Shown here one piece after another: positions 40,904 to 44,978 of a stretch of 64,000 nt of DNA. Positions within the stretch are counted from its first letter, which is position 1. Each line of letters starts with the position of its first letter. Position numbers and translations under genes: made by a program. Source of the stretch: Thermoanaerobaculum sp. (GTDB lineage: Bacteria > Acidobacteriota > Thermoanaerobaculia > Multivoradales > UBA5704); contig JAJKHS010000136.1 in the NCBI GenBank assembly GCA_021154885.1, positions 124,001-188,000 of the forward strand, in the 5' to 3' direction. Under the pieces are notes generated by a model. It was not told where the DNA came from and did not search any database. It saw only the letters and a list, made by a program, of their open reading frames with translations.

Positions 40904-42577
40904 ATGGCCAAACCCGTCCTGTTCGCGATCGATGACGACACCGAGGTGCTGCGCGCCGTGGACCGCGACCTGCGGCGCAAGTATGGGGAGCAGTACCGCG
41001 TCATGCGGGCGAGCTCGGGGCCGAGCGCGCTGGAAGCCGTGGAGCAGCTCCAGGTCCGCAAGACTCCGGTCGCCCTGTTCCTGGTGGACCAGCGGATGCC
41101 CCAGATGTCCGGCGTCGAGTTCCTGGAGAAGGCCATCCCGCTCTTCCCGGGGGCCAAGCGGGTCCTGCTCACCGCCTACGCGGATACGGACGCCGCCATC
41201 CGCGCCATCAACACGGCACGGATCGACTACTACCTGCTCAAGCCCTGGGACCCGCCCGAGCAGTGCCTCTACCCGGTGCTCGACGACCTGCTGGGGGACT
41301 GGCAGGCCAATTTCCGCCCGCCCTTCGAGGGCATCCGGGTGGTGGGACACCGCTGGTCGCCCGAGGCCTTCCAGGTGCGTGACTTCCTGGCCCGCCACCA
41401 GATCCCCTACCAGTGGCTCGACGTCGAGGAGCACGCCGAGGCCCGCGAGCTGGTGGCGACGGCCGAGAAGAGTGCCGGCGACGGCAAGGCCCACCTTCCC
41501 CTGGTCTTCCTACCAGACGGCACCTGGGTCGCCGACCCCTCCCGCGGCGAGCTGGCGGAGAAGATCGGCTTCAGGACCCAGGCCGAGAAGCCGTTCTACG
41601 ACCTGGCCATCGTGGGCGGCGGACCTGCGGGACTGGCGGCGGCTGTCTACGGCGCCTCCGAGGGGCTGCGCACGCTCATGATCGAGGGCGATGCTCCGGG
41701 CGGCCAGGCCGGCACCAGCTCCCGCATCGAGAACTACCTCGGCTTTCCCGCCGGCCTCTCCGGCGCCGACCTCACCCGCCGGGCCGTCACCCAGGCCCAG
41801 CGCTTCGGCGTCGAGATCCTCACTCCCCAGGAGGCCAAGGGGGTGCGCCTGGAGGACCCGTACCGCATCGTGGTCCTCGGCGACGGCAGCGAGGTCTCCT
41901 GCCATGCCCTGCTGATCGCCACCGGCGTCTCCTACCGCAAGCTCGACGTCCCCGGCGTCGACCAGCTCACCGGCGCCGGCGTCTACTATGGCGCGGCCAT
42001 GACCGAGGCCATGGCCTGCCGCGACGAGGACGTCTTCATCGTCGGCGGCGCCAACTCCGCCGGCCAGGCGTCCATGTACTTTTCGAAGTACGCCCGCCGG
42101 GTGATCATGCTGGTGCGCGGCGGCTCCCTCAACAAGGGGATGTCGCAGTACCTCATCAACCAGCTCGGCCAGATGCCGAACATCGAGGTCTGGTACCACA
42201 CCAACGTCGCGGCCGCCCACGGCGACGGCCACCTGGAGTCGATCGACGTGCACAATTCCGAGTCCGGCGAGGTGACGAACCACCCGGCGCGATCCCTCTT
42301 CATCCTCATCGGCGCCCAGCCCCACACCAACTGGCTGGAGGGGATCGTGGAGCGCGACGCCCAAGGCTTCATCCTCTCCGGTCCCCAGCTCCTGCACGAC
42401 GGCAAGCGCCCCGCGAGCTGGAAGCCGGACCGCGATCCGTTCCTGTTGGAGACCAGTGTCCCCGGCATCTTCGTGGCCGGCGACGCGCGCCACGGCTCGG
42501 TGAAGCGAGTGGCCTCGGGCGTGGGCGAGGGCTCGATCGCCATCTCGTTCATCCACCAGTACCTGTCCAATCTCTAG
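40904..42577 (+). CDS. Receiver domain fused to Cys-less thioredoxin-reductase-like flavoprotein
   Basis: 557 residues in three parts. Residues 1-125 are a response-regulator receiver (AIDDDTE, Asp62 in FLVDQRMPQMSG, Lys113 in LLKPW). Residues 140-235 resemble a thioredoxin/glutaredoxin-like fold, VVGHRWSPEAFQVRDFLARHQIPYQWLDV, with SPEA where a CPYC-type motif would be. From about 238 it is an FAD/NAD(P)H oxidoreductase (VGGGPAGLAAAVYGASEGL, DAPGGQAGTSSRIENYLGFP, VFIVGGANSAGQA, GIFVAGDAR). The CxxC redox pair of thioredoxin reductase is missing (GVYYGAAMTEAMAC). It could pass a redox signal to the downstream kinase. The downstream gene follows after 15 bases. Confidence 0.85.
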   Translation: MAKPVLFAIDDDTEVLRAVDRDLRRKYGEQYRVMRASSGPSALEAVEQLQVRKTPVALFLVDQRMPQMSGVEFLEKAIPLFPGAKRVLLTAYADTDAAIRAINTARIDYYLLKPWDPPEQCLYPVLDDLLGDWQANFRPPFEGIRVVGHRWSPEAFQVRDFLARHQIPYQWLDVEEHAEARELVATAEKSAGDGKAHLPLVFLPDGTWVADPSRGELAEKIGFRTQAEKPFYDLAIVGGGPAGLAAAVYGASEGLRTLMIEGDAPGGQAGTSSRIENYLGFPAGLSGADLTRRAVTQAQRFGVEILTPQEAKGVRLEDPYRIVVLGDGSEVSCHALLIATGVSYRKLDVPGVDQLTGAGVYYGAAMTEAMACRDEDVFIVGGANSAGQASMYFSKYARRVIMLVRGGSLNKGMSQYLINQLGQMPNIEVWYHTNVAAAHGDGHLESIDVHNSESGEVTNHPARSLFILIGAQPHTNWLEGIVERDAQGFILSGPQLLHDGKRPASWKPDRDPFLLETSVPGIFVAGDARHGSVKRVASGVGEGSIAISFIHQYLSNL

Positions 42578-42592
42578 GATTGGAGGCGCCCC

Positions 42593-44014
42593 ATGCTGCA
42601 CGATCCCAAGGAACAGTCCCTCTTTCCGAGGCTGACCGAGGAGGCCCTCCGCCACATGCGCGAGGTGGGGGAGGAGGTCGAGCTCGCGGACGGCGAGGTC
42701 CTGTTCGCCGAGGGGGAGACGGACTACTCGCTGTTCGTGGTCCTCGACGGCGAGGTCCGCGTCACCAAGCGGGTGGCCAATGAGGAGACGCTCCTCGCCA
42801 TCCACGAGCACGGCGAGTTCAGCGGCGAGATCTCCATGCTCACCGGCGGCCCGGCCATCGCCACCGGCCGGGCCGCGGGCAAGGTGCGGGCCCTGCGCCT
42901 GGACCCGGACAAGCTCCGCCGGCTGGTGGCCGAGTGCCCGCCGGTGGCGCGGGTCGTCCTCGGGGCCATGGCCAGCCGCACCATGGACGTGAACGCCCAG
43001 ATCCGCCAGAACGAGAAGATGGCCGCCCTCGGCAAGCTTTCCGCCGGCCTCGCCCACGAGCTGAACAACCCGGCGGCGGCGGCGGGACGGGCGTCCGGCC
43101 AGATCCGCGACTCGCTGCGCTGTCTCCAGAAGCTGGTCCTGGAACGGGAGCGCCCCTTCACCGCCGAGGAGCGGCAGGTGATGCTGGAGGTGCAGCAGGA
43201 GGCCCTCTCCGCCGTGGCGCACCGCAAGGAGAAGCCGCCCGTCGATCCCCTCGCCCTGAGCGACCTGGAGGACGCGGTGAACGACTGGCTGGAGGACCAC
43301 AAGGTCGAGAACGCCTGGCGCCTCGCCCCCACCCTGGCTTCGGCCTGCCTCGGCCCCGAGCGGCTGGACGCCATCGCCGGCCGCATCGGCGACGAGTCTC
43401 TGAGCTGCGTCTTCCCTTGGATCGACGGGTTGCTCAACTTGGCCGAGCTGCTCGACCAGGTGGAGCAGAGCACCTCCCGCATCTCCGAGCTGGTGGGCGC
43501 CATCAAGGAGTACTCCTACCTGGACCAAGGGGGACAGCAGGAGATCGACGTCCACGACGGCCTGGAGAGCACGCTCAAAATGCTCTCCTACAAGCTGCGC
43601 AAGGCCAACGTCGAGGTGGTGCGCCAGTACGACCGCACTCTGCCCCGGGTCTGCGCCTACGGCAGCGAGCTCAACCAGGTGTGGACCAACCTGATCGACA
43701 ACGCCGTCGACGCCCTGAAGGGAAAAGGGCAGGGGACCCTCACCCTGCGCACCTCCCGCAATCGGGACGACGCCGTGGTGGACGTCGTCGACGACGGCCC
43801 GGGCATCCCGCCGGAGGTCCAGCCGCGGATCTTCGATCCGTTCTTCACCACCAAGGGCGTGGGGGAGGGGAGCGGCCTGGGGCTCGACATCGCCCGCCGC
43901 ATCGTCAAGATGAGACACAAGGGGGAGATCCGCTTCGAGTCGAAGCCGGGGGAGACCTGCTTCGAGGTGAAGCTGCCGTTGTGCGACGGCAGAAAAGCCG
44001 AAGCCAGGACATAA
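42593..44014 (+). CDS. Histidine kinase with N-terminal cyclic-nucleotide-binding domain
   Basis: 473 residues, no membrane helix. Residues about 15-130 are a cNMP/Crp-like sensor (LADGEVLFAEGETDYSLFVVLDGEVRVTKR, GEFSGEISMLTGGPAIATGRAAG). Then a phosphoacceptor helix, MAALGKLSAGLAHELNNPAAAAGRAS, and an ATPase domain with NLIDNAVDAL, DDGPGIPPEVQPRIFDPFFTTK and GSGLGLDIAR. GGAGG precedes the ATG. It forms a likely pair with the upstream receiver-flavoprotein: the kinase may phosphorylate Asp62. The ligand (cyclic nucleotide or other) is not known. Confidence 0.87.
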   Translation: MLHDPKEQSLFPRLTEEALRHMREVGEEVELADGEVLFAEGETDYSLFVVLDGEVRVTKRVANEETLLAIHEHGEFSGEISMLTGGPAIATGRAAGKVRALRLDPDKLRRLVAECPPVARVVLGAMASRTMDVNAQIRQNEKMAALGKLSAGLAHELNNPAAAAGRASGQIRDSLRCLQKLVLERERPFTAEERQVMLEVQQEALSAVAHRKEKPPVDPLALSDLEDAVNDWLEDHKVENAWRLAPTLASACLGPERLDAIAGRIGDESLSCVFPWIDGLLNLAELLDQVEQSTSRISELVGAIKEYSYLDQGGQQEIDVHDGLESTLKMLSYKLRKANVEVVRQYDRTLPRVCAYGSELNQVWTNLIDNAVDALKGKGQGTLTLRTSRNRDDAVVDVVDDGPGIPPEVQPRIFDPFFTTKGVGEGSGLGLDIARRIVKMRHKGEIRFESKPGETCFEVKLPLCDGRKAEART

Positions 44015-44115: not shown

Positions 44116-44307
44116 CTACGGACCACACGCCGTCCCGACGCACGTTTCGCAGGTCGGGGGGCAGGTGGCGCAACTGAACGGACAGGTGGCCTCGTTGCAG
44201 GTCCCGTTCAGCGTCGGGCGTCCGCCCAGGGCCTCCCCGAGATCGTTCCCGGAAAGACGTCGGATGGACTCCCTGCTCAGCGTCAACTTTCTGACGGCCT
44301 TCTTCAT
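44116..44307 (-). CDS. RiPP precursor-like peptide with lanthipeptide-type leader
   Basis: 63 residues. The leader MKKAVRKLTLSRESIRRLSG followed by NDLGEALGG has the KLTLSRE(S/T)I pattern and a double-Gly end seen in class I lanthipeptide precursors of several phyla. The rest (RPTLNGTCNEATCPFSCATC, then PPTCETCVGTACGP) is a Cys/Thr/Ser-rich core with seven Cys, suited to thioether rings or other Cys modification. GGAGGAAGGATG precedes the ATG. It lies 33 bases after the zinc-finger gene on the same strand, so the two probably share a transcript. No LanB, LanC, peptidase or exporter is in the window, so modification is unproven. Confidence 0.65.
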   Translation of the reverse strand: MKKAVRKLTLSRESIRRLSGNDLGEALGGRPTLNGTCNEATCPFSCATCPPTCETCVGTACGP

Positions 44308-44340
44308 GGCATCCTTCCTCCTTGAGAGAGCAGGATACTC

Positions 44341-44607
44341 CTAACCCGGCTCCATCATCACCTCGTCGACGTAGCACCAGATCCAGTCCTCGCCCGGCTC
44401 CAGGGACTGAATGAGGGGGTGCTTCGAGGCGTGGAAGTGCCTGGTCGCGTGCTTGTTCTTCGAGGAATCGCAGCAGCCCACGTGGCCGCAGGAGAGGCAC
44501 AGCCGGAGATGGACCCAGGTGTCGCCCATCTTCAGGCACTCCTCGCATCCCCGCGTGTGGGGCTTCACGTCGTGAATCTGATCCAGGTGGGAACAGACCT
44601 CTGGCAT
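44341..44607 (-). CDS. UBP-type zinc-finger protein
   Basis: 88 residues. CSHLDQIHDVKPHTRGCEECLKMG, LRLCLSCGHVGCCDSSKNKHATRHFHASKHPLIQSLEPGEDWIWCYVDE: the Cys/His arrangement and GHVGCCDSS...HxxxH order are those of the ZnF-UBP fold, which in eukaryotes binds the ubiquitin C-terminus. Bacterial copies are often found near thioredoxin-reductase-like genes, as I recall. Here it faces the receiver-flavoprotein/kinase pair across a hairpin and is upstream of a RiPP-like peptide. The start at 44607 is behind GGGGAGG; 44637 is the longest alternative. Confidence 0.82.
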   Translation of the reverse strand: MPEVCSHLDQIHDVKPHTRGCEECLKMGDTWVHLRLCLSCGHVGCCDSSKNKHATRHFHASKHPLIQSLEPGEDWIWCYVDEVMMEPG

Positions 44608-44696
44608 CGCGCGCCTCCCCTCGTCCTCCGGTTCCAACAGCGGGGCCGGAGGATTCAGAGTATACGCAGTGTCAAGAGGGCGCCGAGAGCTGCGGC

Positions 44697-44978
44697 CTAC
44701 TTCACCGCGCTCTGGAACTGCTCGAGCAGACTCTTGCCGGAGACGGACTTCGAGTAGGAGTCCGCCGCGACTAGGAGCACCCCCACGGGGCCGAACGCCA
44801 TGCGGGCGAGCGTCCCGACCACGAGGTGGGCCACACCGGACGCAACCTCCCCGTCGAGGAGCAGGCTGGCTCCCGGGGCCACGGTCTCTCCCGCGAGTTT
44901 CAGACCACGAGCCAGAATGACGCCGCCGGACAGTTCGGATGCCTCGGGTGCCGGGGCCGGATTCGGGGTGCTGTCCAT
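44697..44978 (-). CDS. Small protein, DUF6072-like
   Basis: 93 residues. A short polar start is followed by GVILARGLKLAGETVAPGASLLLDGEVASGVAHLVVGTLARMAFGPVGVLLVAADSYSKSVSGKSL. The Gly-rich hydrophobic run AHLVVGTLARMAFGPVGVLLVAA may be a membrane helix. This resembles a small family of unknown function (my recollection is DUF6072). GGAGGGACTGCA precedes the ATG. The neighbouring zinc-finger gene is 90 bases further along on the same strand. Confidence 0.6.
   Translation of the reverse strand: MDSTPNPAPAPEASELSGGVILARGLKLAGETVAPGASLLLDGEVASGVAHLVVGTLARMAFGPVGVLLVAADSYSKSVSGKSLLEQFQSAVK

Follow-up and report, generated by a model that had tools for sequence, protein, structure and literature searches.

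A probable class I lanthipeptide precursor among about 50 dispersed across a Thermoanaerobaculum genome

Here, we examine a short open reading frame (ORF) in a 64,000-nucleotide stretch of Thermoanaerobaculum sp. DNA (the window). The evidence makes it probable that this ORF, at 44116-44307, is one of about 50 dispersed class I lanthipeptide precursors with a common leader, on which the modifying enzymes act in trans. The argument rests on the leader, on the enzymes encoded in the genome, and on relatives in which the same leader lies beside these enzymes.

Results

The precursor gene and its surroundings

The ORF is genuine. It encodes a peptide of 63 residues, MKKAVRKLTLSRESIRRLSGNDLGEALGGRPTLNGTCNEATCPFSCATCPPTCETCVGTACGP, and ends with the stop codon TAG. 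An earlier reading of this DNA, made from the letters alone (the sequence-only reading), had given the correct coordinates; the strand, which it left unstated, is minus. It had described a 63-residue product with the KLTLSRESIRRLS motif, a double Gly, and a core of seven Cys with Thr and Ser, all of which are found in the translation, and the good ribosome site it noted corresponds to the AGGAGG listed below. Shine-Dalgarno sequences of comparable kind precede most of the sister precursors described in the next section. The features of the locus are as follows.

44116..44307, minus strand: precursor peptide gene, 63 amino acids plus stop (ORF translation; jackknife leader HMM, 39.3 bits)
44221..44307, minus strand: leader, residues 1-29, KLTLSRESIRRLS...LGG, with a double Gly end that is the presumed C39-type cleavage site (aligned with sisters)
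44119..44220, minus strand: core, residues 30-63, RPTLNGTCNEATCPFSCATCPPTCETCVGTACGP, with 7 Cys and 8 Ser/Thr (residue count)
44317..44322, minus strand: Shine-Dalgarno sequence AGGAGG, 9 nt before the ATG (sequence inspection)
44341..44637, minus strand: UBP-type zinc-finger protein, directly upstream, possibly co-transcribed, link not conserved (PF02148, 2.3e-15)
44697..44978, minus strand: DUF6072 protein, of a family of unknown function, upstream of the zinc finger and possibly the first gene of a shared transcript (PF19549, 1.5e-18)

The double Gly occupies residues 28-29, and the seven core Cys lie at positions 37, 42, 46, 49, 53, 56 and 61. Every one of these Cys is preceded by a Ser or Thr at a distance of one or two residues, and other Ser/Thr residues lie further back, so the ring topology is not predictable. 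The core does contain both of the residue types needed for (methyl)lanthionine, namely Cys (seven) and Ser/Thr (eight).

The zinc-finger gene ends 33 nt upstream of the precursor, on the same strand, and had been read as probably co-transcribed with it. A shared transcript is possible, but the case for it is weakened by comparison with G001, a genome of the same genus. There, the zinc finger is 92% identical and another gene takes the precursor's place. No syntenic orthologue of the precursor is seen in the same genus, either beside the G001 zinc finger or in G002 and G003, which lack any zinc-finger homologue. Because a different gene adjoins the zinc finger in G001, we judge the adjacency to be probably incidental, and a functional link between the two proteins was set aside on the same grounds. 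A scan of the precursor locus returned neither a sigma-70-like promoter nor a terminator; for this lineage, the sigma-70 consensus is perhaps an unreliable indicator.

No modifying enzyme had been noticed nearby, and this observation stands. Comparison of the window ORFs with a LanB/LanC/LanM set gave no homologue of any of the three, and a Pfam scan of 20 neighbouring genes (about 30-62 kb) gave no RiPP enzyme and no radical SAM protein. These neighbours include an efflux pump, a sensor kinase, an amidohydrolase, DnaB, alanine racemase and transporters. On the plus strand, the product of a gene at 40904-42577 is a fusion between a response regulator receiver domain and a pyridine nucleotide-disulphide oxidoreductase, and the gene that follows it (42593-44014) encodes a cNMP-binding sensor kinase.

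A leader family dispersed through the genome

The leader of the 44116-44307 peptide belongs to a family that recurs throughout its own genome, as judged with a profile built from other members. A jackknife HMM of 38 sister peptides, from which the peptide itself was left out, scores it at 39.3 bits (E 1e-11). With the same HMM, the runner-up among the 514 window ORFs reaches 8.7 bits, and 10,000 shuffles of the peptide peak at 8.0 bits; the match is far beyond chance. In a direct comparison, the window ORF recovers itself at 100%, followed by sisters of the same leader family at E 3e-5 and weaker. The family consensus is KLxLxRETLRxL...GG, in which the 44116-44307 leader has ESI instead of the commoner ETL. 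When aligned with its sisters, E13 and L18 are invariant, and L8, L10, T/S14 and G28 are nearly so.

Among curated models, NF038153 (lant_leader_L1a), which describes a family of class I lanthipeptide leaders, is the sole NCBIfam match of this leader, at 14.6 bits (E 0.028), which is below the curated cut-off of 22; TIGR04149, a family of radical SAM-modified RiPPs, was not matched in the same search. Sisters score higher. NF038153 gives 22 matches over the cut-off in the genome, and the sister precursor beside LanC on contig C75 reaches 27.4 bits. A sister leader from the related genome G010 matches TIGR04149 at 27 bits. When GTDB contigs were searched with degenerate patterns from the 44116-44307 peptide alone, the sole match was a weak one to the leader, in a Desulfomonile metagenome-assembled genome.

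The host genome (8.2 Mb, 161 contigs) contains about 50 dispersed precursors with this common leader. With a profile built from 35 members in this genome, 53 matches were obtained, spread over 32 contigs, a number to be read as a census rather than a test because the profile includes the members themselves, and the weakest few matches are uncertain. Grouping matches within 5 kb yields 44 separate places, 37 of which hold a single gene. Of the 53 precursors, no more than three have a class I LanB or LanC at a distance of 10 kb or less (C75:2273, C1:110762 and C1:32820).

Leaders and cores have diverged to different degrees, with mean pairwise identities of 46% for leaders, 30% for cores and 26% for shuffled cores. 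Cys makes up 16% of core and 0.2% of leader residues, Ser/Thr makes up 22% of core residues, and the number of Cys per core ranges from 3 to 14 among the 48 sisters examined. In a few adjacent sisters (for example on C69, C46 and C66) the cores are clearly duplicated, which suggests that the family has grown by local duplication as well as by scattering. One member on C88 (L083:8986-9174, equivalent to G000:C88:14985) has an intact leader and GG followed by a hydrophobic core with no Cys at all. Lanthionine is therefore impossible in this peptide, which is possibly a different product made from the shared leader.

Class I enzymes in the genome

In class I chemistry, LanB dehydrates Thr and Ser by way of glutamyl-tRNA, and LanC closes the rings. 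The genome encodes three PF04738 dehydratases, 16 LANC_like matches and six LanM N-terminal domains. On C75, a sister precursor is followed directly by a 423-residue LanC, and the locus also encodes a LanB of 1112 residues. The LanB is full-length, with both the glutamylation and the elimination domain (PF04738, 2.3e-171; PF14028, 1e-69), and its sequence matches the solved lantibiotic dehydratases 5ehk and NisB (4wd9). The LanC (PF05147) matches NisC (2g02), and its zinc-site motifs AHG, WCYG and CHG align with their NisC counterparts. Both enzymes are thus encoded in trans to the 44116-44307 gene. A second LanB/LanC pair is encoded on C1; its LanB is about 30% identical to the C75 LanB and to the orthologues of the latter in relatives.

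The sequence-only reading had argued that a remote or unusual enzyme would be needed. Remoteness is borne out, as the LanB/LanC pair adjoining a sister precursor is encoded on a different contig; nothing unusual is called for. It had also proposed searching the genome for LanB and LanC and for sisters with the same leader, the lack of either to count against it. Both are present, and with about 50 sharers of the leader in the same genome as LanB and LanC, its assignment of the peptide to the class I lanthipeptide-type precursors is upheld.

Other RiPP enzymes are also found. The dehydratase of C83 consists of two proteins, one for elimination and one for glutamylation (L058:8303-11819), with a C39 protein about 7 kb away and a small ORF upstream; split N- and C-domain dehydratases are an arrangement known from thiopeptide-type systems. 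In all, the genome encodes three C39 proteins, on C81, C83 and C45, none linked to the 44116-44307 gene. The six LanM dehydratase domains lie on C45, C42, C143, C141, C126 and C156, and the genome is rich in lanthipeptide genes. Just upstream of the C143 LanM is a mersacidin/lichenicidin-type precursor, unlike the 44116-44307 leader type. We ranked LanM low as a candidate modifier, since these enzymes sit at separate loci and the one examined, C143, has its own mersacidin-type precursor.

Leader, LanC and LanB in related genomes

In genomes of the same order, LanB and LanC genes beside the leader are orthologues of the C75 pair, with LanB identities to C75 that reach 74-75% within the genus, 64% at the level of the family and 43-60% in other members of the order. 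A compact and complete cluster is found at G010:C255 (L129), where six tandem precursors, their leaders near-identical, lie between a C39 ABC transporter and LanC-LanB. A precursor, LanC and LanB occur at G010:C240 and G023:C44; LanC, LanB and two precursors at G029:C35; and LanB, precursor and LanC at G024:C175. In G003, a precursor adjoins LanB on C101, and several precursors surround one LanC on C196. Thus, members of the family neighbour LanB or LanC at C75 and in G010 (two loci), G023, G029, G024 and G003, the 44116-44307 gene itself being unlinked. It is possible that the G010:C255 cluster models the ancestral arrangement.

The leader and the enzyme also co-occur. Eight of 59 genomes contain a leader match at E<=0.01, and all eight have a LanB at E<=1e-60. 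A ninth genome with a strong LanB, G024, has a leader peptide adjoining that LanB, so that leader and strong LanB are found together in nine of the 59 genomes, the others having neither. Fisher's test on the counts 8/0/1/50 gives 4e-9, with phylogeny ignored. Some genomes without the leader (for example G033) encode weaker, different LanB-like proteins. No orthologue of the core of the 44116-44307 peptide was found in the relatives, and hence the product of this particular gene may not be maintained.

Discussion

The observations above fit a pathway in which the full-length LanB of C75 would bind the leader (KLTLSRESIRRLS...), then glutamylate core Thr and Ser residues and eliminate to give Dhb and Dha. 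The C75 LanC, or a paralogue, would add Cys thiols to these, forming as many as seven (methyl)lanthionine rings within TCNEATCPFSCATCPPTCETCVGTAC. Finally, a C39-type transporter/peptidase would cut after the GG and export the product. The GG of the precursor, together with the C39 transporter beside the G010 cluster, suggests cleavage after residue 29. The ORF, the leader family and its dispersal, the enzymes in the genome, and the clustering of leader with LanC-LanB in relatives and their co-occurrence are observed; we infer which enzyme acts, the steps from dehydration and cyclisation through cleavage to export, and any bioactivity. The C1 LanB/LanC pair, instead of that on C75, could be the real partner.

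Several findings count against processing in trans as a class I lanthipeptide: the sub-threshold NF038153 score, ESI in place of ETL, the lack of an orthologous core, the lack of a recognizable promoter or terminator, and the resemblance of sisters to TIGR04149. This last finding, and the fact that most sisters have no adjacent enzyme, would fit a leader that recruits some other enzyme, for example a radical SAM maturase with Cys-rich cores as its substrates (of the ranthipeptide or TIGR04149 type), in which case the LanB/LanC link would apply to only some sisters. We consider this quite improbable, since LanC and LanB are the identified neighbours of the leader in the relatives' clusters and the leader co-occurs with LanB, the scan for radical SAM genes having covered 20 genes around the precursor. 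A silent or decaying gene, a true family member by descent that is unexpressed or no longer modified, would account for the absence of a conserved core, of a syntenic orthologue in relatives and of a consensus promoter, as well as for the low NF038153 score. Yet the frame is intact, the ribosome site strong, and the leader and its GG complete; the core is balanced in Cys and Ser/Thr, with no visible damage, and a sigma-70 consensus may mislead in this lineage. Decay is, in our estimation, improbable.

It is also conceivable that the Cys residues are free or disulphide-bonded and bind metal, with the peptide acting together with the adjacent zinc-finger protein. The proximity of that gene and the Cys-dense tail are in keeping with such a role, which we nonetheless regard as highly improbable: the leader ends in GG, the family is found beside LanB and LanC, and the same-genus zinc finger has no neighbouring precursor. 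Our preferred reading, that the gene encodes a class I precursor processed in trans, extends to a broader proposal towards which we lean, with appreciable doubt: that a single conserved LanB/LanC pair processes some 50 dispersed, fast-diverging precursors, that this system arose in one genus from a G010-like cluster by scattering of precursors, and that its products are unlike any described class I lanthipeptide.

How does such a system compare with those already known? The nisin precursor sits in its own gene cluster and is not known to have a GG/C39 arrangement. The present system resembles the nisin type (NisB/NisC) in its two-enzyme logic of LanB plus LanC, and differs in having about 50 precursors, nearly all unlinked to the enzymes. 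With lant_leader_L1a (NF038153) it shares the leader architecture and GG end, and 22 sisters from the same genome exceed the cut-off, whereas the 44116-44307 peptide, at 14.6 against 22, is not filed as a member on its own score. Searches of the open-access literature, for dispersed class I precursors and for this leader model, turned up no matching system and no class I system of comparable size, which is not proof of absence. One mining study was confined to seven genes on either side of lanC (PMC7268733), and mining of this kind would overlook almost every member of the family described here.

Neither the leader type nor the enzymes are new, and a single promiscuous synthetase serving scattered precursors has precedents in class II. 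ProcM and SyncM are promiscuous synthetases whose precursors, 29 substrates for ProcM and 79 for SyncM, are scattered over the genome (PMC10783134), and a review of promiscuous lanthipeptide enzymes draws on class II enzymes to illustrate large natural libraries (PMC12328550). If a single LanB/LanC pair does handle about 50 cores, it would amount to a natural experiment on the handling of diverse cores by a glutamyl-tRNA-dependent dehydratase and a separate cyclase, and the precursors would form a substrate set at hand for peptide engineering. Like the prochlorosins and synechococsins, the family described here combines many scattered precursors, a conserved GG leader and hypervariable cores. 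The 44116-44307 peptide is not itself a prochlorosin, however: those systems pair Nif11 leaders with LanM (class II), whereas here an L1a-type leader goes with LanB and a separate LanC (class I).
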